From: Halichondria panicea | Taxonomy: Eukaryota; Porifera; Demospongiae; Suberitida; Halichondriidae | Reading direction: 5' to 3' | Assembly (NCBI RefSeq): GCF_963675165.1 | Contig: NC_087381.1 | Coordinates: 4,030,001-4,094,000, forward strand | Length of the DNA: 64,000 bases | Part shown: piece by piece, positions 1-44,565 of the stretch | Position numbering within the stretch: position 1 is the first letter of the stretch | How the letters are laid out: each line of letters starts with the position of its first letter | The notes under the pieces: generated by a model | What the model saw: the letters and a program-made list of their open reading frames with translations, nothing else | The model's database searches: none | What the model was told of the DNA's origin: nothing | Position numbers and translations under genes: made by a program

Positions 1-48
1 GTACCTCAGGCAGAAGTAAAGGTTGAGTGACACTTTGTAGTGAATTCG

Positions 49-343: not shown

Positions 344-399
344 TGACCAAACATGGTCAACAATCGGGATAACATAATCATACGTTCAGTTCATTAAGT

Positions 400-1164: not shown

Positions 1165-2147
1165 TCTCTCGAAGACACCTCCCCACCATGGTAGCGTTCA
1201 ACGTTGAACACCCATTCGCAGCTTAGTTCCGCTAAGTGTTCCTTGACAGTACCGTCCTGGAAAATAGCCTTCATATACTTGGCTGCTGCTTTGAACGTTT
1301 TTCCGTTGTCAGACAAGAACTTTCGGGGTAAACCTCTTCTGGATGCAAATCTCTTCAAACATCTTAAGAACGTTAACGTGGATTGGTTTGAGACGATGTC
1401 CAGATGTACAGCTCGAGTGACTAAGCACGTAAACAGACAGATCCATACTTTGTCGGGTGTAACCGAACCACGGATGCTCAAAGGGCCAGCAAAGTCGACA
1501 CCAGTGTACGAAAAGGCTGGATCTTCCTTCACTCTGAACGTGGGTAGAGGTGGTGGTGGTGTAGTCTTGAAGGGTGCTCCTTCGAATCTTCTGCACAGAA
1601 CACATCGGTGAATGATGCACTTCGTTAGACTTCTCCCTTTCGGTATCCAGAAACTTCTCCTGGTCTCAGTCAGTGTTTCCTTCACTCCGTTATGGCAAAC
1701 CCGCTCATGGGCTCTTCTCACAATCAGTTTAGTCAGAGGATGGGTTCTGGGTAGGAGTATTGGGTGCCTGGTAGCATACGGGATTTCTGCATTGGAGAGT
1801 CTTCCTCCACAACGCCATATTCCTTTCTCGTCTTTGAAGAGGTTTAGCTGTTTCTCCTGAGCCTTGAAGTTTTTCTCTTGGACCAACTGTCGCTGTGCGG
1901 TCGTTATCCACAATCCTTCCGCATGGGCTAGCTCTTCTGGGGTCAGGTTGGCTGAGATGTCAATGTAACTCCTCTTGAATACTCCAACTGCTCTCAGGAC
2001 TTGGGCCGTTACTCTCAACAGTCTTGACAATGTACCAAAACTCTCGCAGTCCAACAACTCACTTATGCTGCCCTCGGAGTCAGTCGCTACAAGGTTGAGC
2101 GATCTCAGGGCACTTGTCTTCAGTTCTGCAGAACATTCTTCTGGCAT
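1128..2147 (-). CDS. BEL pol: integrase (zinc-binding domain and catalytic core)
   Basis: This block inserts the DNA copy of the element into the genome. An H2C2 zinc-binding domain is visible (RRAHERVCHNGV, then CIIHRCVLCRR), followed by the rve core with its first acidic residue in YTGVDFAGPL and the second in FLSDNGKTF. The third catalytic residue lies beyond the frame shift near 1190, at the start of the next block. The start of this block overlaps the end of the RNase H-like block, again out of frame. It is part of one pol polyprotein, not a separate gene. Confidence 0.88.
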   Translation of the reverse strand: MPEECSAELKTSALRSLNLVATDSEGSISELLDCESFGTLSRLLRVTAQVLRAVGVFKRSYIDISANLTPEELAHAEGLWITTAQRQLVQEKNFKAQEKQLNLFKDEKGIWRCGGRLSNAEIPYATRHPILLPRTHPLTKLIVRRAHERVCHNGVKETLTETRRSFWIPKGRSLTKCIIHRCVLCRRFEGAPFKTTPPPPLPTFRVKEDPAFSYTGVDFAGPLSIRGSVTPDKVWICLFTCLVTRAVHLDIVSNQSTLTFLRCLKRFASRRGLPRKFLSDNGKTFKAAAKYMKAIFQDGTVKEHLAELSCEWVFNVERYHGGEVSSREWSNRQNVAYEK

Positions 2148-3153
2148 CAGATGCGTTTTCGCTTCTCCGCAAGGTGTGTTGTCTGCATCTAGCCAGCCAC
2201 TCAGGACCTCTTCGCCACAGTTGATTCACTGACAATTCCAATGGTGGAAGTCCTCTCGAAGGTAGGTCGGCAGGATTAGATATTCCTGGGCAGTGTCTCC
2301 AGTGATTGGGGTGGACGTTTTTCCGAATCTCATTAACCCTGTTTTGTACGAAGGGTTTCCACTCTTTGCTGATGCCACGAATCCAATAGAGTGCAACTTG
2401 TGAATCCGTGAAACACGAAATCTCTAATTGAGATAGGGTTGGCTGGAGACTGTCTGAGACTGCTACAATCAGTTTGGAAAGAAGGAAGGCTGAGAGGAGC
2501 TCCAAGCGTGGTATAGTCTGAGCTTGAAGTGGTGCAACTCTCGTCTTGGAAACGACAAAGTGGACGGTCGTGGTGGCCTCTGTCCTCAGCACCAAATAGA
2601 CCACTGCAGCGTAGGCTCTTGTCGATGCATCACAAAATCCATATAGAGTCATGGAGAGTGGAGTACCATTAACATTGTGGAAGTAGCTTCTGGGTATCGA
2701 GACCGGACCACCTTCCCTGAAATCGGCCACCAAGTCCTTCCATTCTTGCATCAATTCCTCTGGTAAGGTACTGTCCCACTCAACTTTGTTCTGGCATAGC
2801 TTCTGGAACAGGATCTTGAACTTGATAGTAACAGGTGCTAGAAATCCCAATGGGTCGTAAAACTTCCCAATCAGGCTAACAACGTTCCGTTTGGTTGGTC
2901 GCAGACTTGTCGCGAGTTGAGCCAACTCCGAGACGTCAAAAATGAGGCAATCGGCAGTGGGGTTCCAGAGTACTCCTAGAATCTTGTTCTCTTCGACTCC
3001 TTCAGTGGGTGAACATCCGAGCGTAGCCTTGGCATACGTCTCGTCCTTATTCTCTTCAGTGGGTGAACATCCGAGCGTAGCCTTGGCATACGTCTCGTCC
3101 AGGCAGCTTTCTTGGGGTTGGGATTTTGTTGGTTGGATCTTCTGCACAGTCAA
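2080..3153 (-). CDS. BEL pol: RNase H-like / Pao A17 region
   Basis: This block continues pol after the reverse transcriptase. It contains FYDPLGFLAPVTIKFK, a hallmark of the region after RT in BEL/Pao proteins (the Pao retrotransposon peptidase family, A17 in Pfam). RNase H-like words follow (YGFCDASTRAYAAVVY and CFTDSQVALYWIRG), and the block leads into the integrase linker. Near its start the sequence carries an 18-codon in-frame tandem duplication (about 3001-3108), so the peptide DETYAKATLGCSPTE occurs twice. A frame shift near 3130 separates it from the RT block. Confidence 0.88.
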   Translation of the reverse strand: MTVQKIQPTKSQPQESCLDETYAKATLGCSPTEENKDETYAKATLGCSPTEGVEENKILGVLWNPTADCLIFDVSELAQLATSLRPTKRNVVSLIGKFYDPLGFLAPVTIKFKILFQKLCQNKVEWDSTLPEELMQEWKDLVADFREGGPVSIPRSYFHNVNGTPLSMTLYGFCDASTRAYAAVVYLVLRTEATTTVHFVVSKTRVAPLQAQTIPRLELLSAFLLSKLIVAVSDSLQPTLSQLEISCFTDSQVALYWIRGISKEWKPFVQNRVNEIRKNVHPNHWRHCPGISNPADLPSRGLPPLELSVNQLWRRGPEWLARCRQHTLRRSENASDARRMFCRTEDKCPEIAQPCSD

Positions 3154-3808
3154 TACGTTGCTGTAGCTCTCTTGAGTTGGTCAGGAATTTCCTGAGGTTG
3201 AATCCTCCGTGACGAAACATATCCTTAGCTTGGACGTATAGATCAAACGCTGCTTCTTCCGTTTCTGCACCTGTGACGATGTCGTCAACGTAAGTTGATT
3301 GGAGTAGGCGTCGAACGGTGCCCTCGTTGGATTCCAAGTAACCTTCCAAGTGAAACTTGATCGTGGCATTGAGTAGGAAGGGGCTTGAGGATACGCCGAA
3401 CACAACTCTGGCAAATCGGAACACTTGTAACTCTGGATTGTCCTTGGTGATATCGTCTATCCAAATAAACCGCAGGACATCACGGTCACTGTCGTTAACT
3501 GCTATCATCAGAAACGCCTTTTCGACATCAGCTGTCAAGGCAATCGGATATGATCGGAATCGCAGCAATAAGTCGAGAATCAGTTGGTTGAACTTCGGAC
3601 CTTTGTGCAAGCATTCATTCAGTGAGGGGCCGTCGGACTTGGCTGAAGCATCGTAAACAATGCGTAATTTCGTAGTAGTCTTGTCACTGCGCACGACGGC
3701 ATGGTGAGGCAGGTAGTGTACCCGTTCCGGGTCCTTGCCTCCGATTTGGACAGTCTCGATGACTCCCTTTTCCAGTTGCTCCTTGATAGTGCGGTCGTAC
3801 CGTTCCAA
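3056..3808 (-). CDS. BEL pol: reverse transcriptase
   Basis: This is the RNA-dependent DNA polymerase domain. Recognisable motifs in order are LRIVYDASAKSDGPSLNE, the core around ALTADVEKAFLMIAV containing the first catalytic Asp, VVFGVSSSPFLLNATI, and STYVDDIVTG with the catalytic YVDD box. The motif order and the 'YDAS' and 'FGVSSSPF' words are typical of BEL/Pao rather than Ty3/gypsy. The gag-protease frame ends about 20 bp upstream, so a frame change between gag-PR and RT is needed here. Confidence 0.92.
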   Translation of the reverse strand: MERYDRTIKEQLEKGVIETVQIGGKDPERVHYLPHHAVVRSDKTTTKLRIVYDASAKSDGPSLNECLHKGPKFNQLILDLLLRFRSYPIALTADVEKAFLMIAVNDSDRDVLRFIWIDDITKDNPELQVFRFARVVFGVSSSPFLLNATIKFHLEGYLESNEGTVRRLLQSTYVDDIVTGAETEEAAFDLYVQAKDMFRHGGFNLRKFLTNSRELQQRIDCAEDPTNKIPTPRKLPGRDVCQGYARMFTH

Positions 3809-3829
3809 TATTGCTGGATTCTGCCGGAG

Positions 3830-5947
3830 TCAGCATAGCATTCCTCGCATTCGTTTGAGGCTTAGTTGGTAGTTGTCCGGTAGAGGATCGTGGAACTCCT
3901 TCCATGGGAGCGACACCTTGTACCGTCCCTCGTGGAAGGTGATGTCGCTAGCAAATTCATCGTACAGGGTCTTTTCTTCCTTGTTTATGCCTAACGACTT
4001 GAGCTCCCAGAATGATCGTAACTGCTCGTCCAGCGCCGTGGACTCAAGTTCCTGGGTTTCGGCTCTGAGTACATGTGTGGTCGTCAGATTCATCGAGCAT
4101 TGGGCTTGGTCTTTTGCTGGTGTAGGGCCAGACAGTACCCATCCTAATTTGGTGTGAATGGCGGTAGGTCCACCTTCACTCCTACATACACTTCCCGTTA
4201 CTAGGTCCCAGTAATAATCGGAGCCGATAAGGACATCAACCTCTAGACTGGACCTCCCATCGGAATAATCGGCAAAATCTAGTCCCATAAATTGTTGGGT
4301 ATTCTCAAAACAAGTAGTAATGTGCTGACCAACTAAGGGTCCACATATGGTTGGGACAACATACAGTGACAACGACATGGGTGGATATCCTTTCAAGCAC
4401 ATTCCCACATTCACAATCGTACATACCTTCGCTTGTTCTCGGTTGGATCCAAAGGTAGCAATGGAAAGAAGTTGTTCTCCACTAGGCTCCAATGCCAGCA
4501 GATTCTTGGCTCGTTCAGTGATGTAGGACTTCTGGCTGCCGCTGTCGAATAAGAGTCGAACTTCAATCGAGGTCTCCGATTTCGCAGGGTTGTGCACGAT
4601 ACTACGAGCGGTCTGTAATAGGATGGCATTTCCTTTGTCAGAGCATAAAGCGTTGTTGGCCAAAGTAGGTGTGTACGGGGTTGCATCGGGACTCAGCGTT
4701 GTTTCAGGTTGTACTGTGTGGGGTCGAGGATTCAGCTCAGCGACTTCTCGTTCACAAATTGACGTGTGATGCCGTCCCTTGCATTTTAGGCACTTGCTTG
4801 TGGATCGACAATTGCGGCCCATGTGGCCCTTGCGTAAGCAGTTGAAGCAACGACCACTATCTCTCAAAGTTTGTTTGCGAGCGGTGAGGCTGATTACAGT
4901 CTTGCAGTCGGTCGACGGGTGGGATTGCTGGCAGTAGCTACAACTTACTCCAGCTCTTGGTTCCTGCGCCCTTGACAATAGGGCAGAGGAAGTTTGACGG
5001 CCTCGATCTTGATTTCGGCGTGGTGGTGTATGGAAGGAGTTGGAGTTGGAGTTGGAAGCTCTCTCTCTAGCGACCAGTTCTTCTTCGAAGGGTTTAAGTA
5101 AGCTATCCATGTTCAAATCTGTGGATGCGACCTTACGGCTGACAATGAGACGTAGATCGGTAGGTAGCTTGGTTAGCAGCACAGAGGAGAGCATAGCCCC
5201 ATACGATTCTGATTCCACTCCTAGGGACTTCAAACTTCTCATGTGTGATTCGGTGCTGTCGTAGAGTCGTCGCAGATCCTTCAGGTTCTGGTCTGATGTC
5301 ACAGCCTCCACCGTCAACAGTGTCTCCATATGCTTCGAGATTATCAGTAGTTTATTGCCAAACCTTTTCTGCAGGATCTCAATCGCTTCTTGATAGTTAA
5401 CGGACGACAGGGTGAGTCCGGAAATGGCATCATACGCAGTTCGTTCCACCAGGGACCTCAGATAATTGAACTTGTCCGTGTCTGTTAGCCCATCGTTATT
5501 GTGAATAGCGGACTCATATGAGTCCCAAAAGGTTGGCCATTTCATCAGGTCACCATTAAAGTGTGGAAGTGTTAGTTTGGGCAGTTGAACTCTCGCCCCT
5601 CGTTCAGGACCTCGAGTGGCCGTAGGTGGGACAATCCCTGGTGCTGTAGCAGTAGGTTCAGCTCTTTTGATTCGTGTCAAGGCTTCATATATTCGCTCCC
5701 GATAGTCATCGGCTTGTTGGATTTCATCATCAAGGGTTTCCTCTGGGGTAAGTTCAATAATCTCAGTATCTAATCCCTTTAGTGTTTCCAACTTTTGTTC
5801 GAGGGTCTGCTGAAGTAGAGACAGTCGATCTGGGTTTGGGTGTGTTTCTCCAAGAGCAACAGCCAGTTGACCCAGAGTGCGCGTGGCCGACGCCTTGTGG
5901 CCAGCGCGTATTCTTCTCTTCCTTGTTGAGACTTCTGTGTCGGTCAT
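3830..5947 (-). CDS. BEL gag and aspartic protease
   Basis: This is one long open frame for capsid and protease. I place the start at the ATG at 5947 (MTDTEVSTRKRR), because the open frame upstream runs into the 5' LTR and primer site. Roughly the first 350 residues are a DUF1759-type gag (LPKLTLPHFNGD, then WPTFWDSYESAIH). A zinc-knuckle region follows (CSYCQQSHPSTDC and CFNCLRKGHMGRNC). Next comes a retropepsin-like domain with the catalytic word LLFDSGSQKSYI, and the frame ends close to the RT block. No stop interrupts the roughly 700 codons. Confidence 0.9.
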   Translation of the reverse strand: MTDTEVSTRKRRIRAGHKASATRTLGQLAVALGETHPNPDRLSLLQQTLEQKLETLKGLDTEIIELTPEETLDDEIQQADDYRERIYEALTRIKRAEPTATAPGIVPPTATRGPERGARVQLPKLTLPHFNGDLMKWPTFWDSYESAIHNNDGLTDTDKFNYLRSLVERTAYDAISGLTLSSVNYQEAIEILQKRFGNKLLIISKHMETLLTVEAVTSDQNLKDLRRLYDSTESHMRSLKSLGVESESYGAMLSSVLLTKLPTDLRLIVSRKVASTDLNMDSLLKPFEEELVARERASNSNSNSFHTPPRRNQDRGRQTSSALLSRAQEPRAGVSCSYCQQSHPSTDCKTVISLTARKQTLRDSGRCFNCLRKGHMGRNCRSTSKCLKCKGRHHTSICEREVAELNPRPHTVQPETTLSPDATPYTPTLANNALCSDKGNAILLQTARSIVHNPAKSETSIEVRLLFDSGSQKSYITERAKNLLALEPSGEQLLSIATFGSNREQAKVCTIVNVGMCLKGYPPMSLSLYVVPTICGPLVGQHITTCFENTQQFMGLDFADYSDGRSSLEVDVLIGSDYYWDLVTGSVCRSEGGPTAIHTKLGWVLSGPTPAKDQAQCSMNLTTTHVLRAETQELESTALDEQLRSFWELKSLGINKEEKTLYDEFASDITFHEGRYKVSLPWKEFHDPLPDNYQLSLKRMRGMLC

Positions 5948-6092
5948 TGCACACTTATGTGCGCAGACAGCAGAGTAATCCGTTGAGTAGTCTTCGCAAC
6001 TTGTTCTTGCACACTTTCGTGGGCACCAATTAGGACAGTAGAGTGATCCGTTGAGTAGTCTTCGCAAACTTGCTTTTAGACTTCCGATTCCA

Positions 6093-6110
6093 ATCCGGTT
6101 CGAAGGACCA
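6093..6110 (-). other. Primer-binding site, tRNA-Tyr type
   Basis: Directly inside the 5' LTR, the minus strand reads TGGTCCTTCGAACCGG. The first 11 bases are complementary to CCA plus the acceptor stem of eukaryotic tRNA-Tyr (5' end CCTTCGA), and the match continues into the T-stem with one mismatch. The tRNA identity is from my memory of the tRNA-Tyr sequence. Confidence 0.75.
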
Positions 6111-6327
6111 TGTAAATAATCAGAATTCACTCTTACTTAACCGTTCAAACTGTTATTATTTTCGTTATACTACAGGATTCAATTAGATTGACTCTTGTTC
6201 ATCTTTCATTCATTTCTCACAACATGTGTCTGATCATGTGATTACAATACTGATGACATAATGTGTAGTGTGTGTAGTGACACAATAAGGTGACACAATA
6301 ACTAGTAAGATAACATAATTTCCAACA
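6111..6327 (-). repeat. 5' LTR of the BEL element (217 bp)
   Basis: It has the same TG...CA ends as the left LTR. Its extra length is explained by two short tandem duplications near 6260-6300. Confidence 0.93.
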
Positions 6328-6332
6328 CCTGC

Positions 6333-6537
6333 ATAAATTTGTTTTGCAAGAACATGTTCATTCTTTTTTCTGCTGTTTCTAGTCCTTCAATTTGCTGGCT
6401 AAATTCTTCCCTTTTTTTCCATCGTTTACACAAGTTGTTTTCAAAAAGAATCACGCTTTTGTGCTGCCACTATTGCCTTCTTTTTATTTTGGTATTGTTG
6501 TCGTCTTCTTTGCTTTGACTTTATAGACCGCTGTCCT
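6333..6537 (-). pseudogene. 5' part of the exon interrupted by the BEL element
   Basis: On the minus strand, after a splice-acceptor-like ttgtag near 6538, the frame codes for a basic, glutamine-rich stretch (KQRRRQQYQNKKKAIVAA). After a one-base shift at a run of T it continues with a lysine- and glutamate-rich helical segment (KRWKKREEFSQQIEGLE) that reaches the BEL target site. The frame continues into 49-136. It may be the last exon of a coiled-coil nuclear protein. The family is not recognised. Confidence 0.5.
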
Positions 6538-6540
6538 CTA

Positions 6541-7105
6541 CAAGGTGACACCTACAGGGCACGAAAACAGTAACATTGTAACAATTGTAAATACACTTAC
6601 TTGATCTTTTGGCCTTGAACTTTTGGCCTTGAATGCTTTGTGGAGGAGTCTGATCAGTGAATGTATGATCTGTAATATTCAACTTAGTGCCTGCTAAGGA
6701 TTCAGGGAGAGGAGAGGGGAGAGGGCAACAATGAAGGGGCCATTAAATACATACTCTGCATAAAATAATAATTATTAATTATGATAGAATGTAGGCCTAC
6801 GTATGTCTGCTCACCATCATTTCTGCGTCTTGATGGTCATATCCCTTGCTCATCAAAATATTGAAGCAGTGATCAGATGATCCTGGGTCTTTAGATGGGC
6901 TGCTCATGATCTGAAGTAGCAAAATACAAATCTTGATGCGCTTTAATTCATATCTGTTCACATGCGACCTCTGACCCCAGATTGAGATTTGATGGCAACC
7001 AATCAGTATTTAGTGGAATCCCAGTTCAGTACAGTGTCTAATATCTAGATACTGATATAAGTCGCATATCATATTATTGAGCCCTCTATTGAAAATAGTT
7101 AGCTA
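6541..7105. other. Spacer with no recognised gene
   Basis: AT-rich sequence with no convincing open frame, terminal repeats or RNA gene that I can identify. Confidence 0.5.
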
Positions 7106-7109
7106 GCTA

Positions 7110-7345
7110 GCTGCAGGAATGTGTCGGCGATCTTGCCTCACGGCGGTCTTGTCTTGTAGGCAGGAATGTGTGTGTTGTGTTTGAGTGTTTCCTGACCGGC
7201 GATCTTGCCTCACGGCGGTCTTGTAGGCAGGAATTGTGTGTTGTGTTTCTGACCGGCGATCTTGCCTCATGGCGGTCTTGTAGGCAGTCTTGTAGGCAGG
7301 AATGAATGTGTGTGTGTTGTGTTGAGAGTGTTGTGTTGAGAGTTT
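7110..7345. repeat. Minisatellite, about three units of 50-70 bp
   Basis: The words cggcgatcttgcctca and ggcggtcttgtaggcagg recur near 7130, 7195 and 7250, each followed by a GT-rich tail (tgtgtgttgtgtt). The units vary in length. Confidence 0.8.
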
Positions 7346-7680
7346 GCTGCTTATAATAGTTGTGGTTGATTATTTTACATGTATACGCTATACTTATATA
7401 TTATGCTTATGTAGGAACCAAGAACTTTGAATTGAGCTCAAGCCTGCATGCTGAGTCTACAGTGCTGAGTCTACAGATCATTGTAAACAATTGTAAACTT
7501 CATATGTCATTGTAAACTATGTGTAGATTTCTTCAAGTGTTCAGTGCAGAACACTCCACATATCAGACAAGGCTATGTACACTGCATAGTGCTATGCCCC
7601 ATTTACAAAATTGTACACTACTGTACACTAGGACATCTGGCCCTGTGATATGTGTATCATTAGTATCCATTTACTCTTAG

Positions 7681-31269: not shown

Positions 31270-32440
31270 TGGTGGCAGCCAATTGAAAAAGCGGACACCT
31301 GGAAAAAAAGATTTGAACAATTTCGAATAGCATCAGGCCTCTCGGGTGGCACGGAGCCTAGACAAGTTAGCACACTATTGTACTGCCTAGGAGAAGATGT
31401 CCTAAACTCTACTAACATCACAGACGCAGACCCATCATACAAGTACGGAGAAATGTAATATTCGAACGAGCCAGATTCAATCACAGAAACCAGCTAGACG
31501 GAGAATCTATTGAGGAATACCTCACAGCTCTTTACTCCTTAGTTGAAAACTGCTGTCAGAACGACTTGAGAAAGCAAGGACGAAGCTGTCGCTATACAAG
31601 GAAAGCGGCCAAGAGTCACCCTTCCTTATCGAGTCCCATACTATGAGTGCGGTAACCACAAGTAGTACCACTATCTCTTCGAGATATCACATTTAAGCTG
31701 GATACTGGAGCAGCTGTCTCAAGAGGAGGCCTACGAGCCCCAGACTGAGTTCTCTATGGACCAGCTAAGCGGTCTCACAACAGACTGTGTTTGTGGTACG
31801 AGGATTATCAGCGTAACTGGTGACATCCGTTCTAAATTTCCGAAAGTGTTCACAGGACTAGGGAACATGGGAGATGAGTATGCTATTAAGATGAGTATGC
31901 TATTAGCTCAAAGATGGGGCTGTACCACAAAATGTAGCATTCCCCAAGGTGAAGGAAGAACTGCTTAGACTCAGAAATCAAAGAGCCCATACAGTGGTGC
32001 TGGTCGTGGTGCCAAGCATGTCGAATCTGTGTGGACCCACTTAACGTCAACGTTAGGAGAGAAGCTTACCCATTCCAAAGGTCGAAGAAACCTTAGCCCA
32101 GCTAGCCGGTGCTAAGATCTTTAGATAGCGGATTCGGATTCTGGCAGATCCCGCTAGCTGAATAATCACTACGTTTATCACACCTCCTTCCACTCCATTG
32201 AGGATCCATGGAGTGGGAAGGAGCCCTGTGTATGATGGACGATGTTCTCGCTCGTCTGGTCGCAGTTATGACACGAATAGAAGCAGCTGGTGTCAACACT
32301 AAATTGTGAGTTAAACAAAAAGCGAGTAAAATTCCTGGGCCACATCATTGATCAAGATGGCATCAGAGCGGGCCCTGACAAAATTGCAGCTATAATCAAT
32401 ATGGAAGCGCTCCCAGAGTTTCCAATGTCCCAGAGTTACA
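31270..32440 (+). pseudogene. Ty3/gypsy retrotransposon, gag to RT part (decayed)
   Basis: Plus-strand scraps in the correct order are a gag start (WKKRFEQFRIASGLSGG), a gag middle (DGESIEEYLTALYSLVEN), protease (ITFKLDTGAAVS near 31690-31720, with the catalytic DTG), pre-RT (KFPKVFTGLGNMGDEY), RT scraps (ICVDPLNVNVRREAYP and GFWQIPLAE) and thumb-like KFLGHIIDQDGIRAGPDKIA. Frame shifts, stops and deletions are many. The bases tggtggcagcc at 31270 may be the primer site after a 5' LTR, whose start I cannot fix. The frame stops at ...NVPEL, where the CACTA element begins, and resumes at 44566. Confidence 0.8.
32438..32440. repeat. 3-bp target duplication (aca), left copy
   Basis: aca at 32438-32440 and again at 44563-44565, directly outside the CACAGC ends. 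Three-bp duplications are the rule for CACTA/EnSpm elements. Confidence 0.85.
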
Positions 32441-32640
32441 CACAGCAAAAGCGCTAGTCATAAACGGGCAACGTGCACGCACACGGGGTATTATACGGGT
32501 CCGTTAACGTATAATACGAAACCCACGCACTCCCGTAATGGGACCACTTTAACGGCACCTTGTAACGGTAGCCGTCTTTTGCACGTCCCTGGCCGTTCTT
32601 CTCCCGTAGCAAGACTCTAACTAACCGTGAACTTCACCGT
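32441..32640. repeat. CACTA left end: terminal and subterminal repeats
   Basis: The CACAGCAAAA terminus is followed by repeated ACGG/CCGT words (for example tacgggtccgttaacg). Such clusters are usually transposase-binding sites. Confidence 0.75.
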
Positions 32641-32929
32641 TAAGCCTAACATTGTAGTTTACCGTCTCTGTGTCGTCTTGAATTTTGCTAGATCTATATT
32701 TAGAACAATTATTATTAAATACTGAATTTAATCATGCAGTTCAAAGTGCAAGAACACTGAAGATCAAGAATGGATGTAAATTGAAACACAAGCTACAAGA
32801 CGAAGACTAATAAAATAAGACAATATCACAAGTTATAAGTTCATTACTCTGTATTCCAAGATTGTTTGTGGTGTATACTACTGTTGTTACTGCCTCATGA
32901 GATTTTAGCAAAGTATCTACAAAGCTGGA

Positions 32930-33500
32930 GTGTGACTGTGACTGTCCATTTCTTCAGAGTCAAGGTATCTACAGAACGGAAGAACACAGACTAACTATAA
33001 TAATGTCTTACGCATAATTAGTGTGGTTGCTCTTGTAAGACTGTCCATTTCTTCAGAGTCAAGGTATCTACAAAACGGAAGAACACAGACTAACTATAAT
33101 AATGTCTTACGCATAATTAGTGTGGTTGCTCTTGTAATGTGGTTGCTCTTGTAAGACTGTCCATTTCTTCAGAGTTAAGGTATCTACAAAACGGAAGAAC
33201 ACAGACTAACTATAATAATGTCTTACGCATAATTAGTGTGGTTGCTCTTGTAAGACTGTCCATTTCTTCAGAGTCAAGGTATCTACAAATCGGAAGGATA
33301 CAGTGTTAAAGCAACTATAATATAATCATCATACGCACATTTATGTTGCTCGCGGAGCTATAGTGCGACTGTTCATTTCGCACTTACCTTCCTAGTCATC
33401 GTATCTACAAAATGGAAGAATAATAAAGCAACTATCTGTTATGAATATGTGGTTGCTCGTGTAAGTTAGAGTGCAACTGTCCATTTTCACATGGATGACC
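32930..33500. repeat. Minisatellite, about 105-bp units, 4 good and 2 worn copies
   Basis: Units start actgtccatttcttcagag near 32938, 33043, 33155 and 33257. Worn units follow near 33367 and 33474. Each contains aaggtatctaca and gtgtggttgctcttgtaa. Internal to the CACTA element. Non-coding. Confidence 0.9.
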
Positions 33501-33879
33501 ACCTACATGGATGACCACCTACCGTATATCTCGTTGCGTATGCGAGGCATAATTATGGCAATTAAAATCTCTTACGCATGTTTGAGCACTTCACATCCTA
33601 GTTCATACACTGGTTCCCAGGCCCAATTTTAAAGCGAAAAGTGGTACGTACACAGCACTAGGTCATCGTGTTTCTTGTAAGTTGCCTGCTCCTCGAAGTT
33701 GCCTGCTCCTCGTTTTGGTGTTCATTAGGCAGAGGAGCCTGCAATGAAACATGTTTACAGTAAACACATAAACAGCTAGTGGACAATAACATAGCAATGT
33801 ACTCTAATGTGCACTTCACAATTACTCACAATTACGCTCTCAGTCAAAAAAACACCATATAACACAACTAGGTCCACCT

Positions 33880-34700
33880 GTACATACAACGACAGGTCCA
33901 CCTGACGAAACTTGACAGGCTGTAGCCAAATTAAAGAATAAAACGTGAAACATCCTGACAGACACAAGGACCCAATGTACACACTACAACACAAAGCACA
34001 AGTGTAACTAAATGGACGGGCCACCTGACGAAAGATGACACATCTTGACAGGCTGTTGCCAAAGAATGAAACATTCTGACAGACACAAGATTCTGACAGA
34101 CACAAGGACCCAATGTACACACTACAACACAAAGCAACAAGCGTAACTAAAGCGTAACTAAATGGACGGGCCACCTGACGAAAGATGACACATCTTGACA
34201 GGCTGTTGCCAAAGGATGAAACATCCTGACAGACACAAGGACCCAATGTACACACTACAACACAAAGCACAAGCGTAACTAAAGCGTACAAATGGACGGG
34301 CCACCTGACGAAAGATGACACATCTCGTAACTAAAGCATACAAATGGACGGGCCACCTGACGAAAGATGACACATCTTGACAGGCTGTTGCCAAAGGATG
34401 AAACATCCTGACAGACACAAGGACCCAATGTACACACTACAACACAAAGCACAAGCGTAACTAAATGGACGGGCCACCTGACGAAAGATGACACATCTTG
34501 ACAGGCTGTTGCCAAAGGATGAAACATCCTGACAGACACAAGGACCCAATGTACACACTACAACACAAAGCACAAGCGTAACTAAAGCATACAAATGGAC
34601 GGGCCACCTGACGAAAGATGACACATAATTATATATTGACAGGCTGTTGCCAAAGAATGAAACATCCTGACAGACACAAGTACAAGGACCCAACCAAACA
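33880..34700. repeat. Minisatellite, units of about 120-150 bp, 6 copies
   Basis: Each unit starts with atggacgggccacctgacg (about 34012, 34162, 34291, 34346, 34465 and 34594) and continues with gatgacacatcttgacagg and acaaggacccaatgtacac. The 34291 unit is truncated. Long minus-strand frames through the array are repeat artefacts, not genes. Internal to the CACTA element. Confidence 0.9.
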
Positions 34701-35045
34701 CAATAATAATTAAGTCTCTTTTAGCTAGATCTTGACTACGGTACCTCGGGAAAAAACTCACTGAAAAACTGCTGTATCTCCTTCACAGACCACATCTTGT
34801 TGGAAGCGCTGCAGTACAGAGTACTTACTCCGTGCTGCAAGTACAGTGTGAAGCTAGCTAGACAGAGCAGCATAGTCGAGTCATCAGCAGCTGGAAGTGC
34901 ACGTGATTTCGTGTACGCATGCGCAAATAACTATGATAGAAGGTTCAAGTAAGTGTAAATAGTTCATAATGTAATGTTACATTCAGGTCCATGGCTGTAG
35001 TATTACATACACAAGATATAATTATATACAAAGACAAGTCTTAGT

Positions 35046-38000
35046 CTAGTATGCATCTTCACTCGTCACTGAAATCGCTTGAAGTATGTCGGCAGTATTA
35101 AGTTGACGGCGAGCCGGGTTAGAGCTTCCAGCTAACGTAACCCCGGTAGAAGTAACTGGCTCCAAATCGCGTGGCAATGGGTTTGCATCTTTAGCCTGTT
35201 GGTGTAAAAACGATTGATCAATAGCCCAGACAGGCGCATTAGGTGGGGGTGATAGTTTGGATAGCGTTGAGTCGAGTCGTGTCTTGACTTGGATTGGCCC
35301 TTTGATGGCTTGCACAGACTTTTCAGCTCTCTTGTCCAGTCGGCCAAGAAACTTGTTTAAGTCTGTATGTATTAATAGCCATCTTTCTGATTGTCACTCC
35401 AAACCCAACATAATGCAACTCTTGCCGGACAATTATAATTACCAAACTCAGCATAACATGATTACCTTCTGATCTCCATGGCAGTTTATGCCTCCTTACA
35501 ATATCTCCACCTTTAGATTCTGTTTCTTCTGTCATAAAGTTTTGATCAATTTCTTCCCATAGGCTAAGTTCTTGATCACGCTTGAGGTACTATTACATGA
35601 TGTGCACGTACATTTATCCAATAAATAAGGTAATAATAGGCTTGCCCTTTTTTGAAAAGCTTTCCGCTGGCCTTTTTTCCTATTTAATTTCACTTTCTCC
35701 AACCGCATGGGTTGACTATCATTGTATATCCTGCGCCGAGACTCAAAGTATCGATAAACAGCACCTGTATCCCGTTAATACACTTGAAATTAAAGAGTAG
35801 AGTAACCTACACAGCCAAAAATCCACGGGGCGTGTCAGGTCCGTTACATGTCCGTTACAGGACGTTTACCACATCCTGATACGGGACCGTTGGGTAGACA
35901 CTAAGAAACAGGCCGTTCACATACAGCCTGTAAACAGCCCGTACAAACGGCCTGTATTCAGCCTGTATCATACCGTTCTCATGCACAATTTAATAAGCTA
36001 GTATCATGCTTCAAAAGGTCACAATTCAAAGACAAAGAAGACAAGAACAAGATATATATATATATATTAATTTCTGTTCAGCTACATTATGTCTCTCATT
36101 ATCATGTCTGTGTCTTCACATCCCCACGGTGGCACTGCAGAAAAAAACAACCAGTTGAACCGTACGTTAACGCCACATAAGTATACTAACTTACTGTATT
36201 TATATTCGTCTTGTTTTTGTGCACAAAGATAGACTCTGAGGAGAAGAGGCTGGGAATTATACAAAAAATACACCACTGCTTACCGGCGTACTATGAAGTC
36301 AGTGAACAGCTTGAAGGGCCGTTCTTCATCTCCGAGATAGCTCACCAGCTGTACACTAATTCACATAGATTAAACTAAGTTGCTTACCAGGCAATTGTTG
36401 CATTCTCTTTATCATTCGTCTAAAAACTTCAATCTATCAGCCACAACACATACAAAATAATGGCACTTACCTAACACACCCAGACTCCAACTCGGCATGC
36501 CAATAAAGAAATCTATTAAATAACATGTGTAACGAGTGCTAAAGATGAAAACAATAAACAAACCTTGAGTTTTTCAACATCTGGAAAAGAGTTAGAAGAT
36601 TAAAAGAAGAACACACCACTGTGAATAATCTTACCGGCGTACTATGAAGTCAGTCAACAGCTTACAGTGTGCTGTACACATTACAAGGGCTCTTTTTCAT
36701 CTCGAACATATCTCGCAACTGTACACCAATGATACGCTATTCACACAGATTACATAGTTGTTGAATTTTCTTACCAGGAAACTGTTGCTTTATCTTTAGT
36801 TCATTCTTCTGACAACATCTAGTGTCTACAGAAGTAATAACGTATCACAAAACACAATAGAACAGTGGCACTTACATAATTAGTCCAGACTTCAACTCGG
36901 CAGCATTATCTAAAGTCAATTTGATCGCGTGTTTAATAAGAGAATGCTAGTGAAAGAGAACAACAAACCTGGGAGCATTCTTCAACACCTCTTTATCAAT
37001 AGTGAACAGATGGGAGCCTACGATGAGGAGGATTATTTCAAAAAGGAAGCAAAACAAAACGTTTACCTTGTAAAATTGGCCAGTGTTCCAGCTTCAAAAG
37101 TCCATAACAACGTGCAAACCTGAATTTATAAACATACAGTAGAGGTGAAATTTACATACCTTTGCTGCCAACTACACTAGAGGTCAAATTCACTACAGAT
37201 TTGAAATAGCTGTGGAACTAGAGGAACACAAACTGCTATGAGAAAGTTCAATAAAAATAATATAACTGTTTAATATAATAACATGCTGCTACAGCTTCAC
37301 CTTTTTCTGTTCACAGGTAGACTAATAGTAATGGACTGTATAGTCCTCTTCAAGTTGTCTTTTTGGACCAGCAGCTCCTCTTGTGACAAGCAGCAGGATT
37401 TTTTCTCATCTGTCTGTCTCATTATCTTTTTGTAGTCAGGTGATGTCATCCTGCCCCAAGCTAGCGCATGCGCATAAGCTACACAGCTGCAACAGCCCGT
37501 ACACAGGACGTGGGTGCTACGCCCTAATACAGGCCCGTATCCACGGGCTGTAAACAGGACGTGGGCTAACGTCCTGTTTACAGCCTGTGAGAACGGCCTG
37601 TATACAGGACGTCGGTGGGCTACATCCTGTATACAGGCCGTTCACGGGCCCGTAACGGCCCGTTTTCAACTAACGGCCTGAAACGGACCCGTGGATTTTT
37701 GGCTGTGTATAAATAAGCTTGCATGCATGCAGAGAAAATTACGTTTTATAATGTGAGAAGTGTACTTGTCTTCATGCTCGCTCTTTATCTGTTGGATGAC
37801 AAAGTCTGCTACCTTTTGGTTCTGATCACTGCTGTACCTATATGCATGTATGTATGTATGTATTGCATGTATCAATTGGCATATTAATCTCGTTCTCAGA
37901 AGCCAAGATATCTCTAAAATAACGGAGACAACTTGGGAACAAGGCTAAGCATAATAATAATATTATGCGCTATAATATAACTTTTGTGCACTATAGAGTA

Positions 38001-38465
38001 TATAAGTACAGTATACAGAAGTCTTCAGCTGTAAATAACCCATGTGCAAAGTCACAAGTTCGGCTCACAACAAGGACTGGCAAGGTGGAGGGTTTGCCTA
38101 TTGCTGTTAGTCCTCGTGCTACCATACATTAGTTTGTATAGTAAGTAATTTACTATACGCTTACATCTCAGAAGCATTAAACTTGTCATCGTGATCAGTG
38201 GTTTGTTTTTTGACCATGACCTAAAAGAAATTTAGATTCTGTTATATACATAGTGGAACATTATGCACTTACAGATAATGAAGGTGGAACACTTGCACGT
38301 TGTTTATGACCAGAGCTTTGACTAGCCAGATCTACAGAGGTCCTTTGAGATTCTTTGAGATTCTTTCATCTCCGCTAGATCAAGAGAAATTGCTTCCACC
38401 TCTAATGCAAGCTTTTTTGTAGCTGTTTGCTGTTTAATCATTACTTGCTGGGTGGAAGTTAGCAT
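35046..38465 (-). CDS. CACTA accessory gene, multi-exon, unknown function, split by a nested element
   Basis: Exons read on the minus strand: 38465-38273 (MLTSTQQVMIKQQTATKK, coiled-coil-like, donor SLS|GTAAGT), 38220-38165 (after tttcttttag), one near 38112 (LTAIGKPSTLPVLVV), about 37840-37765 (SSDQNQKVADFVIQQIKS), then after the nested element about 35770-35650 (YFESRRRIYNDSQPMRLEK), 35600-35475 (LWEEIDQNFMTEETES, HKLPWRSE) and 35370-35046 (LNKFLGRLDKRAEKSVQA, ending SVTSEDAY). A 10-bp exact tandem duplication (38344-38363) breaks the first exon and its removal restores the frame. The basic region followed by the acidic MTEE...LPWRS block suggests a nuclear DNA- or chromatin-binding accessory protein. 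No family named. Exon borders are approximate. Confidence 0.55.
35810..37707. mobile_element. Nested CACTA-like element inside the accessory gene
   Basis: Inverted ends CACAGCCAAAAATCCACGGG (from 35810) and its inverse (to 37707). Both subterminal regions (35815-35985 and 37485-37690) are arrays of short words such as cctgtatacaggacgt, acggcctgta and cccgta. A perfect 3-bp duplication is not evident (cta on the left, tat on the right). It lies between exons of the accessory gene, presumably in an intron. It carries its own exon-like pieces but no transposase, so it is non-autonomous. Confidence 0.75.
36080..37449 (-). CDS. Multi-exon gene inside the nested element, with duplicated exon-intron block
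   Basis: On the minus strand an ATG at 37449 opens a clean exon (MTSPDYKKIMRQTDEKKS, then QEELLVQKDNLKRTI) to a donor AAAAAG|GTGAAG at 37301. Smaller exon-like pieces follow, each ending in a GTAAG donor, near 37070, 36880, 36790, 36490 and 36400. Two blocks about 350 bp apart (from 36281 and from 36631) share the words taccggcgtactatgaagtc and a pair of donor-containing pieces, so the region has been tandemly duplicated. The product is unknown and may be a captured host fragment. Only the first exon is well supported. Confidence 0.35.
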
Positions 38466-38490
38466 AGACAAAATCTTTTTTTTTCTTTAG

Positions 38491-39251
38491 TTAGGTTGCA
38501 ACTGTATCGTGGGATTAAAGTTGCTGTCAAGGAGTTTCGGCCACATACCATTTGTGAAGATGTAAAGTACGAAGCAACCATTCTAGCTACACTTAATCTT
38601 CCCTACGTGTTTGGAGTGTGTACAAGATCACGCCCGCACCGTATTGTTATGCAATTTCACGGAATCGATTCTGAAACAGTAACTCTATACAGAGAACTAT
38701 CGGAGCATCCAATTGGCATCACACAACCAATGATGTGGCTTGTTATTTGTGTACAAGTGCTCGAACCAGTACAATACATCCATAGCCATAAAATACTCCA
38801 CAACGATATTAAGAGTAACAATATTCTGATCACCACAAGTCCATTCGGAAGCTCATCTGGAGCATCTATTGCAGCCACAGGACCAAGCGCACTGATTGAT
38901 GTTAGAGCGTATGATCGTCACATTGTACTAATTGACTTTGGAAAAGCTACCATGGAATCCCAAAGTAGGCGCCACCACCTTTCTGAATCTGAAAAGGTTG
39001 AATACTTAGTAAAGTTCCCCCATATTGCCCCAGAAGTTGTGCATGGAGAAAGCAGGCAGACTACTCGTAGTGATATGTTTTCCATCGGGAATGTTTTGCA
39101 GAAAATGTTGGACTATGATTGCTTTCGTACTTTCCCTAACAAAACAAAGGAAGAAATACTTAAAGTCACTAACTGTCTCAAGTCCATTCGTTGGGAAAGA
39201 CGACCATGTGCTGAGAGAACGATAGCAATGATAGATAAATTGATGGTATGA
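38491..39251 (+). CDS. Protein kinase domain carried by the CACTA element
   Basis: About 250 open codons follow a strong acceptor (ttttttttctttag). Kinase landmarks appear in order: the VAVKEF lysine, an αC-like glutamate (KYEATILATL), the catalytic loop HNDIKSNNILI (HxD with Asp, Lys and Asn), DFG in LIDFGKAT, APE in HIAPEVV, the SDMFSIGNVLQKML helix and the C-lobe Arg (ERRPCAERT). The glycine-rich loop and first strand are absent. There is no ATG, and the space upstream is occupied by the first exon of the opposite-strand accessory gene. So either an upstream exon lies further away or the kinase was captured mid-gene, beginning at an intron. Stop at 39249-39251. The gene is convergent with the transposase (257-bp gap). 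Substrate and subfamily are unknown. Confidence 0.8.
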
Positions 39252-39507
39252 TCATGCAACGTACGTAAGCATGCTTCTATACATTTTAGGCTATGCATGC
39301 ATGTCATATATGCACACGTACATATAATTATATATATATTATGATTACGTCTAGAAGTGTACGACGAATTCTTGATTCTTGTTACTTTCATATCCATGCG
39401 TGCAAATAATTTCCCCCATCATGCATGCATGCATGTGATATCCACAATTCGAGCAACAAATGCATGTAATCATAATATAGCACAAGTTAACTATAAAAAT
39501 TATAAAG

Positions 39508-42500
39508 TCAAATGCTGTATTTTAAAGGAATTGGAATCGCTAGAAACACAGTTTCTTTATGCGTACGAAAATCAACTAGCAATTTTGCGTGAGCACACCT
39601 ACAAGCAATTCGCTGTACAGGCATGAAACAACAAGCATCTGGTGGTTCAGTAATATCTGTACTTACAGTAGCAGATATCCCATACCAAGCAGCATGAGGG
39701 TGAAGCTTTTTCCAATGAACATAGCACAAAATATGGCTAAGCTGTTTAACAGTACCACATGAGGTCTGAAGCTTGATTGTATGTTTAAGATACTGTTGAA
39801 CAAACTGTTGAACAACACCAACCCTCATCCGCCCGTAGTCAATTACTTCAAGATTGTCACCAGTACCAGGCCAGTAACACATTACAACGGATGATGAATG
39901 GCTATTTTGACCTTTCTTAGCAGAACCAACAATATCACCAGCAATCTCAATACGTCCAAATTCCTTGTAAAACAAGGGAAAATGAACAATGTTAGAACCT
40001 GGATAAAGCTGTTCATATATTTGTCGTAGTTGTTTGGAATGAGTCGATATTAGAATTTTCTCTTGAAATGGTGGTAGCAGCTTGATTAGTGACTGCTGAT
40101 CGTTAATACAGAAGCTCTGTATGCCGGAAAGCGGAGAGGTTGCCATGCTTAGGCAAGAAGAAACATCTGCTTCATTTATACAACCACCATCGTAGTACAC
40201 AGAAGTTGAATTTCGTTCTTTGCTGACAAGTAACATTAAATTTAAAAATTCTGGATCACTCGGTAAAGGTAGATGATTCAAGTCTTGTTCTTGGCAAAAT
40301 GTTTGCATTAGTTGACTTTCGATAGATCGGCGATTCGTGTGCACTGAACCTAATATACCATTATACCTTTCAAATGCGTAACACCAAAAGGCTTGGGGAG
40401 GTCCAAAATCTAGTATACACTGTTTGAGGTGAAGGTGCAAATGCATGTTTGGCGTGCATGCTTCTGAGCCATATAATTTCTGGAATGATTGACAAAACTC
40501 CAGCAAATAATGGTCTGCTGATACAACATCATGTGTTTTCAGGATTCGCTTCCTCAGTATCGAGCATGCTCTCACGTACAGTAACCAAGATCGCAGATTT
40601 GAATCAGGCAGAACTCCTTTGAGCAAAATTGGAGAGTAAATGGTTATCCAGTTACTCCACTGGTTTGCTGTGAATCCACCATATCCTGAAGAGACATTTC
40701 CTGAAGAGACATTATACGGAATCCTGTTGGAATGTAGAAGGCTTTGATCTTACTCTCAATCTCTGCTAGATGCTGCTTACTAAACAAGCCCTGGTCAAGC
40801 CAAACCTTAAAGGAATGCTTTCCTGTTCCTAGGAACAGATTATGCATTGGGTCTATAACTGTATATCTAACAGGATCAAAGTAGGGTAGTGTTAATAGAA
40901 TTGAATAACGAACGCCTGAGGCTGACTCGAGCCTTTGCACAGCAGTTGGAGTTACTTCCTTGAGTACTAGAGAGCATTTAACTCTGTGTTCTTCATTTGT
41001 TCTCGGAGTCCAATTTCTGCGATCGTAACCAGAGAAATCCTGTGTTGTCTCCTACCGTGTTAAATTGTTTCAAACATTTATTGCAACCTAGTTTAGCATT
41101 ATGACCAAGGAAGCCACATACTTTTCTGCTTGCTGGAATGTCACACATGACACACAAGAAAGTGCTGCTCTGACTCGAATATTTGCAACTTCGAACCGTC
41201 AATAGTTACGGGCAACAGTAAGCCATTCCATAGTTCATGTAGTTCTTCGACTAGTGGTGTAAGATATGAGTTCATATTAAGCTTCGGTTCTTTTGGACCA
41301 GTATAACTCCAACCAGGATCACATTCTCGTGTCTTCTCGTGGTAGATTTTGAAGTGTTAGATATATTGCACCTGTTGAGTAGATAGATCGTTTGTAGGGC
41401 TGAAACCAGTCGACATTCATTGTGAGCAAATATGAGTGTGGAGTATCCAAAAATCGATTAAGTTCAACTTCAGTAAATTGTTTCCACACTTGTCCATCAT
41501 AGATATCAGCAAGAATATCATTGGCCAAGACAGCCATTCGACTCCTCCATTGTTCGCATTTTTCGATGTAATCTGGCTTACTGAGAATGTGGCATAAGCT
41601 TTTCTTGAGAGATCTATATGGGTAAACTTTGATTGGTGCTAGAATACACTTTTTATGCCTTCTCTGCTGTTTCAGTAGTAGCGCACCACAGGCTTTTCTC
41701 TTTCTTACATGGGGATGATTTGGAGTGGCAACATGGCGACATGTTTTAGATTCTGTTTTACCATTTGCTAATGTACGAACGCAATCACTAAATTCATATA
41801 TCACACTGCACTGAGGGCAAACTACATATTCAATGAAACATTTCTTCTCGAGTCCAATGATTTTTTCAACTGACATTAAGGTAACAGGAATTTGTTCCGA
41901 AGCTTCAACAATTTTTGCACAATTATAAGTGCTACCCAAGAGCTTGACAAAGTACTTAATGCATTTTACGATAAACACCGTTGAAGAAGCTGACACTCTA
42001 AATGCTGCTTTCCAAAATAACAGGAGCAGAAGAAAGTAGTACACAGGTTGTGATACCATTTGACATCCCTGTGGAACATGTACATCTGTTTCTGAATCAT
42101 CATCTGAAGTCCACACTTCCTCCAGCCTTATATCCTACAGAAAATATATTGTGAGAGAATGTATAAATATTATTGGTGCTCATAATTGTGACAGGCTCTG
42201 GGAAAACAGACCAATTGGAGCAGATATTGGTATTGAGCAATAGCCAGATTTATAGACTACAGTGTATAATCTCAAAATTTTTTTCTTGGCTAATAGTTAT
42301 CTACAGTCTTTCTACTACCTCTCTGCAAAATCTGATGCTCTGAATCCGACTCTTTCCATCAAAGCGCTTTGTCTAAGCAGCCACCATTACCTTACTTTTC
42401 CCAATTTAGCAATCTTTGAGTGGGCGTTTCTCAATACTGCTGTTTTACAACTTCGAGTTTCCAACGCGCATAACTCAGGGATGGAACGAGGTATGTGCAA

Positions 42501-43069
42501 ACTAAGCATATCAATGCGTAGGCAATTCTTTGCTCTATCATCTGGTATATAGATCGCAAAAATTATAGCTTGCGCCAATTGGTCTGTTTTCCCAGAGCCT
42601 GTCACAATTAATGCATATGCATGACTGTGTGTGTGTGTGTGTTTTGTGACAGAGGGTGTGGTCTATATAATACTTACGTCATGCGTGTATATTTTATATG
42701 ATATGCATGCATGCATTTAATTACAAGTAAATCACAAATGCATATCTATCACTGACATGTAGTTCATTGTCATCATCACAATCTGAAGAATCTGTGGCAT
42801 CAAAGAATACCCTATCCTCGTCACCCAAGTTGGCTGTTGAACGGGTACAGTTGGACTCTGCATGAATCCAGTGAAAAAAAGCCAGGGGCCCTATTAATAC
42901 AGTATCGGAGCCTTTCAGTATACTCACCTGCATCAATATCAGTATCTTCTGTCTGTTCAAGAGTCTCATCATCAGTGTTACAGTCTTGCTGCACTTCTAG
43001 ACCAGGCCTGCCATCACAAACAGTCTTAGTAAGCCATTGCTTGGTAACTTTATTGTAAAAACTAGACAT
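39508..43069 (-). CDS. CACTA transposase (tnp2 type), with frame shifts
   Basis: Exon 1 is 43069-42928 (MSSFYNKVTKQWLTKTV, donor GCAG|GTGAGT), exon 2 is 42857-42757 (acidic, DATDSSDCDDDNELH) and exon 3 starts at 42134 after tctgtag. Exon 3 carries Cys pairs (EYVVCPQCSVIYEF) and then the catalytic core: LLTMNVDWFQPYKRS (first Asp), CDIPASRKVCGFLGHNAK, YTVIDPMHNLFLGTGKH (second Asp) and FWCYAFERYNGILGS (Glu). This order fits the tnp2-like DDE transposase of EnSpm/CACTA elements. Frame shifts lie near 41340 (next to a 10-bp near-duplication), 41030, 40720 and 40630. An in-frame 15-bp tandem duplication lies at 40685-40714. The stop is at 39508. The product cuts and joins the element ends. Confidence 0.85.
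42184..42609. mobile_element. Small MITE in a transposase intron (TIR 35 bp)
   Basis: The ends aattgtgacaggctctggga and their exact inverse (35 bp each) lie 426 bp apart. TA flanks both sides, as in Tc1/mariner-type MITEs. It fills most of the intron between exon 2 (42757) and exon 3 (42134) of the CACTA transposase. Confidence 0.85.
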
Positions 43070-43099
43070 ATGTCGGTAATAACTAGACTTCGACAGATA

Positions 43100-44160
43100 C
43101 TCAGGTACATTTAAGGACTGGGACCAGCAATTATTGCTGATTCAGCGGAAACGAAGCTCCGCCCACGATTTTTACTATCAATTGTGGAGTAAAAATGGAG
43201 TTTTGCTGCTCTAATCTTTAGCTCAAATTCCGGAGCGTAAAACCTTAGTTAAAGTGTTTACTTTTTAGTGCAGTAGTTAGTTCAAAGCTATATGCAGGCA
43301 CTACCGTTAGCGCCTAACAGTGGGATCAATGAAAAGTAGGTTATTAGCCTTTACATGCAAAATATTAAGCTGAAAAAGTACTTTATTTAGAAAATCTCAC
43401 CTTTAGCTGATCCCACTGTTAGGCGCTAACGGTAGTGCCTGTATAATTATAGCTTTGAACTAACTACTGCACTAAAAAGTAAACACTTTAACTAAGGTTT
43501 TACGCTCCGGAATTTGAGCTAAAGATTAGAGCAGCAAAACTCCATTTTTACTGCACAATTGATAGTAAAAATCGTGGGCGGAGCTTCGTTTCTGCTGAAT
43601 CAGCAATAATTGCTGGTCCCAGTCCTTAATGTACCCATAGATTGAAGAGAGAGGGATAGGAAACGGAGTGGTGCACGTGATGATTTTACATTGAATCTGC
43701 ATTGGAGCCTCAAAAATTTTCCGCGCTACGCCCTATGAACGAAGCTATTAAGCACACTTTTGCCGGGTAACTCCCAAAGCTGTGTTTCCTCGAGACATAA
43801 TCTCTTTCAGCAACTTAAAACACGCCTAGTCCATGAGCCACGTGTAGTACTTGCTAATAACTGACCACACCCAGTAAAAAGAGACTTTCCAATAAAGTTA
43901 TATGTTCCCAAGGCTGTTTTAGAGCTATTGGAACATGTAACGTGTAAGCGTGCTGGTTATGACTACTACAATAGGTATAGACCTTGAAATATAAGTGAGT
44001 TGCACGGACTAAGCACAGTTACTTGTAGTTTATTATGCACTGAGTGTAGAAATAGATATTGTTGTGATGGCCTCGATTAAACCGCACCGTAGCGCGGATG
44101 TTACTCGAGATACAAACCGTTTCCTATCCCTCTAACTCTTCAATCTATGATGTACCTGAG
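43100..44160. mobile_element. Foldback MITE, copy 2, interrupted
   Basis: Same family as 8702-9226: inverted halves beginning AAGGACTGGGACCAGC pair over about 250 bp. The outer ends are CTCAGGTACATTTAAGG on the left and CCTGAG at 44155-44160 on the right, with TA on both sides. The right end is interrupted just before its terminus by the element at 43636-44149. It sits 30 bp upstream of the CACTA transposase ATG. Confidence 0.85.
43636..44149. mobile_element. Element X (514 bp) nested in foldback MITE copy 2
   Basis: Terminal inverted repeat of about 31 bp starting CATAGATTGAAGAG and ending with its inverse. A 7-bp direct repeat ATGTACC flanks it (43629-43635 and 44150-44156). Removing it restores the expected right end of the foldback MITE. 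No coding capacity. Confidence 0.85.
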
Positions 44161-44329
44161 TACTGGTCACAGTGGGGACACAGAACACTAGCTCTTACTC
44201 TTTTACTAGATGGTTCTAGATCTACAGTAACATCATCAGTAGAAATGTTCTCATTGAAGGTTGCCATTATTTTTATAACAATAGTAATGCACAATAACTT
44301 CAGAATAACGTAATGTACAAATAATATTA

Positions 44330-44562
44330 TTATCTAGCTAGCTATATCTACAACGGCGTTCGTTTGAGCCCGTTTTGAGAGCTAGTTTCATGGTTGGTCA
44401 GCTCCGAGATCTTCGCAGCTTTGAACGGTGCCCGTTAGCTCCTCCCCCATGAAAACGGGTCCACACCCCATGCCCGTTCCGTTTAACACCGTATTTATAC
44501 TGTTTGTGCGATACCTAACGGTCCTCCCGTGACACCTGTTTTTGGCACGGGTTTTTGCTGTG
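44330..44562. repeat. CACTA right end: subterminal and terminal repeats
   Basis: Rich in cccgt/acggg words (for example acggtgcccgttagc and ggcacgggttttt), ending TTTTTGCTGTG, the inverse of the left terminus. Confidence 0.75.
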
Positions 44563-44565
44563 ACA

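Follow-up and report, generated by a model that had tools for sequence, protein, structure and literature searches.

Protein kinase genes recur tail-to-tail with the transposase in CACTA/EnSpm elements of the sponge Halichondria panicea and are probably a selected part of them

On the usual view, a eukaryotic cut-and-paste transposon requires a transposase alone, sometimes together with a DNA-binding helper, and the host gene pieces captured by plant CACTA elements are mostly fragments found in single families. Animal CACTA/EnSpm (CMC) elements of the SmTRC1-like type have CAC..GTG ends, duplications of 2-3 bp, a tnp2/Transposase_21 transposase, subterminal repeats, and an extra non-transposase protein (PMC1636069). 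Fungal IS3EU DNA transposons contain an alpha-kinase gene oriented opposite to the transposase, and fungal EnSpm, Plavaka, and KDZ transposons carry TET/JBP dioxygenases, which have been proposed to counter silencing (PMC12730594). In the open literature that we searched (Repbase entries and closed papers were outside its scope), no conventional kinase was reported in a CACTA element, and the phrase "transposon-encoded kinase" appeared nowhere. Here we describe a 12.1-kb element at positions 32441-44562 of a 64,000-nucleotide stretch of the H. panicea genome (contig NC_087381.1, positions 4,030,001 to 4,094,000, forward strand), which we refer to as the window. Wnt genes present in the assembly support an animal host. 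We consider it probable that this element is a decayed CACTA/EnSpm member of a lineage in which the transposase is faced tail-to-tail by a conserved accessory gene, often one for a basic coiled coil plus a kinase.

The element starts with CACAGCAAAAGCGC at 32441 and finishes with GGGTTTTTGCTGTG at 44562. Its CACAGC ends form terminal inverted repeats (TIRs) that begin with CAC (CACAGCAAAA and TTTTGCTGTG), match at 21 of 28 positions, and are identical over the first 10 bp, and they are flanked by an ACA target site duplication (TSD) on each side. The interrupted sequence resembles, by eye, a Gypsy-type pol frame. A related copy of this host retroelement at C5:3902290-3902550 (C1, C2, etc., are contigs of the same genome) is uninterrupted across the junction and has the target once (ACG, compared with ACA in the window); since this copy is continuous, both ends delimit a single insertion. 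The complete ends and the ACA duplication proposed in the original prediction, made from the letters alone, are thus borne out, and the empty site agrees with its premise that 32441 and 44562 bound one element. The tnp2-type transposase that it proposed is supported through homology: the window transposase pieces (39508-42134) share 35-40% identity with a 793-aa open reading frame (ORF) at C6:6795136-6797514, the best-preserved relative, which matches Pfam family PF02992 (tnp2, Transposase_21; 1e-16) over the region that is the counterpart of the N-terminal window ORF, and none of the window pieces by itself passes a Pfam cut-off. The motifs CSRC and HLHAHL can be read in the sequence of the C6 protein. 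Several stops within 41052-41318 interrupt the window transposase frame and had been overlooked; introns were ruled out as their cause because this stretch is open in the C6 relative and contains, in the window, homologous coding sequence in shifted frames with stops.

At least 10 further loci in the genome hold a related kinase gene beside a related transposase gene, all but one of them tail-to-tail (Table 1, in which E2 to E10 denote such loci; E1 is the window copy). With the window included, this arrangement is present at 10 of 11 kinase-transposase loci, and the two stop codons are 140-382 bp apart at the eight convergent loci measured (257 bp in the window). One complete element is E2 (C1:4723293-4740211); its 26-bp TIR (CACAGGGCCAGATAGGGTAGTGTACA) is perfect and likewise starts with CAC (CACAGGGCCAGAT), and its duplication is TTG. 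A second copy of this element, E4, lies on C3. The two are 95-99.8% identical over the transposase and most of the kinase, one end of E4 is eroded, and the presence of E4 on a different contig indicates that the element moved with the kinase aboard. In E2 the gene order is accessory (divergent), transposase, and kinase (convergent), whereas E1 and E3 have the accessory gene on the far side of the kinase. As subfamilies differ in the position of the accessory gene and in their termini, it is the transposase-kinase arrangement itself that is common to them. Nested repeats aside, the window element is single copy at the DNA level; a search of the same genome for copies of the whole element returned none, the recurring DNA consisting of the nested repeats only. 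The single copy would suit a host kinase that one CACTA element captured a single time and that has been neutral since, an option raised in the original prediction, but the other kinase-transposase loci and an independent complete element with the kinase within its ends refute it, and we give it almost no credence. Nor is the kinase found only as a host gene, the contrary outcome that had been named: it recurs beside CACTA transposases and within the ends of E2.

The kinase ORF of E2 (C1:4737340-4738449, 370 aa) consists of a basic coiled coil of ~85 residues followed by a full kinase domain (PF00069, 1.8e-25) with the motifs IGRGSFG, VAVK, HND, DFG, and APE, and this type of coil is also present in E4 to E8 and E10. 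The window kinase and its transposase lie, as originally proposed, on opposite strands; the kinase (+ strand) matches PF00069 at 1.6e-19 and, like E2, has the catalytic Lys, the HxD-loop Asp, DFG, and APE. Its glycine-rich loop is lost, with QNLFFSLV in place of the GRGSFSVV of its relatives; E2 and E7 have an intact loop, and E3 has preserved part of it. Neither this loss nor that of the N-terminal coiled coil had been noted in the original prediction. Reading of the three frames upstream of the window kinase revealed no recognisable coiled-coil N-terminus, and these frames, together with the alignment to E2, E3, and E7, disfavour an upstream spliced exon that would restore the loop. Since the loop is mutated in place, loss is likelier than an intron. 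The kinase profile matches were to PF00069 and PF07714, with the alpha-kinase family absent among them. The nearest PDB sequences, BTK/ITK among other TK/TKL kinases, had low identity and gave no informative assignment to a kinase group. In the predicted structure of the E2 kinase (mean predicted local distance difference test score, 53), only the long N-terminal helix is usable, and the model was too weak for a fold search.

Comparisons of kinases between CACTA subfamilies showed saturated synonymous sites (proportion of synonymous differences [pS], 0.72-0.88) with a nonsynonymous proportion (pN) of about 0.24-0.46; for E1 and E3, the synonymous and nonsynonymous distances were 2.38 (dS) and 0.29 (dN), respectively, and for other subfamily pairs pS was 0.73-0.88 against a pN of 0.31-0.50. 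Transposase controls gave the same pattern. The low pN at saturated pS indicates that the kinases evolved under purifying selection between subfamilies; given the saturation and the protein-guided codon alignment, the data speak for constraint but do not allow omega to be stated precisely. The original prediction had taken several copies under purifying selection as the mark of a functional part, and this mark is present, although in diverged relatives rather than in DNA-level copies. The kinase has long been kept in its tail-to-tail position, which gives it the look of a working transposon part and not of an accidental capture, and we judge it very likely to be a selected part of the element.

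In a kinase tree, five transposon kinases grouped together against six sampled host kinases with a support of 100/100. Common features of the transposon kinases are HND in place of HRD, the motif DFGKA, and an activation segment of the form YxLSExEKxEY..APE. The host kinases, which include tandem clusters of coiled-coil kinases on C9 and others on C3, are 20-33% identical to them. These clusters (C9:0.54-1.33 Mb and C3:0.1-1.7 Mb) are made up of kinase genes in single long ORFs; the C9 kinases that were read have a coiled-coil N-terminus and are a plausible ancestral type of the transposon kinases, which likely derived from a host coiled-coil kinase. The transposase tree clusters E1+E3, E6+E7+C9, and E2+E4+E5, paralleling the kinase relationships, and contains two kinase-bearing groups, E1/E3/E6/E7/C9 and E2/E4/E5/E10, the latter adjoining elements with the coiled coil only. 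An ancestral kinase with losses and a single transfer between lineages would both fit this tree.

A related kinase is also present in a second, unrelated transposon. This 6.7-kb S element (e.g., C1:11588458-11595168) has a 13-bp TIR (CATTGCCAGCAAT) and encodes a coiled-coil kinase of the same clade as the CACTA kinases (28-34% identity). It is a high-copy, TIR-bearing, young element (at least 17 copies at 97-100%); no target duplication was seen in comparison with paralogous empty sites, and its other proteins had no Pfam match. The S element, the CACTA relatives without a kinase, the C9 host clusters (23-33% identity), and a transposase tree that requires at least two kinase-bearing groups, one of them nested among coiled-coil-only elements, would agree with a recurrent passenger: a fragment from a host gene for a coiled-coil kinase that entered CACTA elements repeatedly or hopped between families, had no role in transposition, and owes its signature of selection to its host-gene stage. 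We nevertheless regard this explanation as unlikely: (i) none of the host kinases sampled belongs to the transposon-kinase clade (100/100), (ii) the tail-to-tail position and spacing recur in diverged subfamilies with different termini, and (iii) low pN against saturated pS is seen on branches within the transposon clade. Less probable again is a kinase that serves the host, with carrier elements tolerated, or the kinase domesticated at some loci, and selection at the host level. The E2 kinase ORF is intact despite the splitting of its transposase by an insertion, and the high-copy S element has an intact kinase in many copies; however, the intact S copies are 97-100% identical and thus simply young, and most CACTA kinases decay by frameshift alongside their transposase, unlike a retained host gene.

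Several observations weigh against the kinase being a selected part of a working transposon. (i) A coiled-coil gene without a kinase occupies the same slot at C6:6794226-6794858 (211 aa), C5:3909026-3909488, and C6:6904953, and weaker, probable cases are found on C8 and C1 (C1:6061), so that the kinase is dispensable in some lineages. The C6 coiled coil resembles the N-terminus of the E2 kinase (YRNL/YRNM), which suggests that the two may be homologous. (ii) At C9:3236311, the exception to the convergent arrangement, kinase and transposase share one strand. (iii) No copy was found in which kinase, transposase, and both ends are all intact: in E2 a nested 5-kb element interrupts the transposase, and there are frameshifts in E4 and E5. 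(iv) Omega values are rough owing to the saturated synonymous sites. The 5-kb element within the E2 transposase (C1:4731678-4736658) has CACTGTAAAAAC ends and a 2-bp TG duplication, and E4 provides its empty site.

We propose tentatively that the kinase may act on the element's own complex or on its silencing. An element-encoded Ser/Thr kinase would act in trans and join the DNA-bound transposition complex via its basic coiled coil; there it could phosphorylate the element's own transposase, the accessory (TnpA-like) protein, or chromatin and silencing proteins, and phosphorylation would permit or tune transposition or expression. Lineages that have lost or lack the kinase point to a role in modulation and not to an essential catalytic one. 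More speculatively still, the coiled-coil kinase could serve animal DNA transposons as a mobile regulatory module, with a fixed slot in several CACTA subfamilies and exchange with at least one unrelated, TSD-less TIR transposon; acting in trans through phosphorylation, it would license transposition or block host silencing. If true, a selected signalling enzyme beside the transposase would amount to element-borne phosphorylation control of the element's own proteins or of host silencing. That an unrelated second element has a kinase of this clade suggests transfer of such modules among transposon families, much as for TET/JBP genes in fungi. For annotators, part of the invertebrate "kinome" may be transposon genes.

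By its sequence, the window copy is an old, decayed CACTA/EnSpm member. With stops in the transposase and a kinase that lacks the glycine loop and N-terminus, we count it as broken, and it is therefore an unsuitable place to study function; without a complete transposase or a glycine-loop N-lobe, it probably performs none of the proposed kinase role today. The accessory gene of the original prediction is recognizable as such, since its MTEE..LPWRS block and flanks are homologous to accessory genes elsewhere, namely in E3 (C3), E2/E4 (C1/C3), and the C6 element; identity is 53-64% for elements on C3 and ~32% across the MTEE..WRS block for C1 and C6. The subterminal arrays were also recovered, as two long direct-repeat arrays confined to the left side; in E2/E4 the arrays lie near the kinase-side end. 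Three nested repeats inside the window element (Table 1) were absent from the original prediction. The repeat at 35810-37707, with CACAGCC ends and a TA duplication, resembles the fungal ESTA group (EnSpm-like, TA duplications), and the fold-back at 43111-43629 immediately adjoins the short high-copy repeat at 43634-44149. Elsewhere in the window, positions 1-7647 are the right part of another CACTA relative; its end, of the C6 type (CACAGGGCCAGATGTCC, inverted), terminates at 7647, and fragments of a coiled-coil gene occupy 2-103 and 6329-6551. Across the genome, most CACTA transposase matches are concentrated in the middle part of each chromosome-sized contig, in a single cluster or a few (e.g., C3 3.6-3.8 Mb, C5 3.9-4.2, C8 3.6, C12 3.2-3.5, and C15 3.1-3.4), which may mark centromeres.

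Table 1. Features of the window element (window positions) and further loci with a kinase gene convergent with a transposase gene (contig positions)
Feature	Position	Strand	Evidence or remark
TSD ACA, left copy	32438..32440	.	Sequence; single-copy empty site C5:3902290-3902550
Left TIR CACAGCAAAAGCGCTAGTCATAAACGGG	32441..32468	+	21/28 matching the right end, initial 10 identical
Subterminal direct-repeat array 1	32909..33420	.	Repeat search
Subterminal direct-repeat array 2	33895..34690	.	Repeat search
Accessory gene, three ORFs, inferred exon limits; MTEETES..RRHKLPWRS block and C-terminal LNKFLGRLDKRAEK part	35046..35774	-	Homologous blocks in other elements
Nested high-copy element, 1.9 kb, CACAGCCAAAAATCC ends, TA duplication	35810..37707	.	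~22 full-length copies elsewhere, 91-96%
Kinase ORF, 262 aa; VAVK Lys/HND/DFG/APE kept, glycine loop and N-terminal coiled coil lost	38463..39251	+	PF00069 1.6e-19; alignment to intact relatives
Transposase C-terminal ORF, 413 codons	39508..40749	-	39-50% identity to many transposase loci; weak DUF4218 match
Transposase middle ORF with YTVIDPMHNLFLGTGKH	40644..41051	-	Locally up to 62% identity to relatives
Transposase disrupted stretch, stops and frameshift	41052..41318	-	In-frame translation; C6 relative open across it
Transposase N-terminal ORF, CPQC zinc-ribbon part and NVDWFQPY	41319..42134	-	34-48% identity to relatives
Nested fold-back repeat, 182-bp arms, 99% complementary	43111..43629	.	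Repeat search
Nested short high-copy repeat, ~0.52 kb	about 43634..44149	.	At least 10 copies, 97-99%
Right TIR	44535..44562	-	Pairs with left end
TSD ACA, right copy	44563..44565	.	Sequence
E2	C1:4737340		Kinase convergent with transposase
E2 tandem duplicate, 40 kb away	C1:4777282		Kinase convergent with transposase
E3	C3:3776854		Kinase convergent with transposase
E4	C3:3645297		Kinase convergent with transposase
E5	C2:5719132		Kinase convergent with transposase
E6	C7:5148046		Kinase convergent with transposase
E7	C16:3353189		Kinase convergent with transposase
E8	C8:3650073		Kinase convergent with transposase
E10	C14:3917073		Kinase convergent with transposase

These elements share with plant CACTA elements that have captured genes the presence of host-derived coding sequence inside a CACTA element, but here one gene is found at the same place in diverged subfamilies and under purifying selection. 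In the ends, short TSD, tnp2 transposase, subterminal repeats, and additional protein, they are like the SmTRC1-like CACTA elements, from which they differ in the convergent coiled-coil kinase gene; the SmTRC1 paper mentions no kinase (PMC1636069). As in the TET/JBP carriers, an enzyme gene is kept by, and exchanged between, transposon families, although that enzyme is a dioxygenase and the present one is a kinase (PMC12730594). The closest published parallel is the fungal IS3EU alpha-kinase transposons, in which a DNA transposon likewise has a kinase as a repeated part, encoded on the other strand from the transposase, whereas the elements described here belong to another superfamily, carry a PF00069 kinase rather than an alpha-kinase, and reside in an animal rather than in fungi (PMC12730594).

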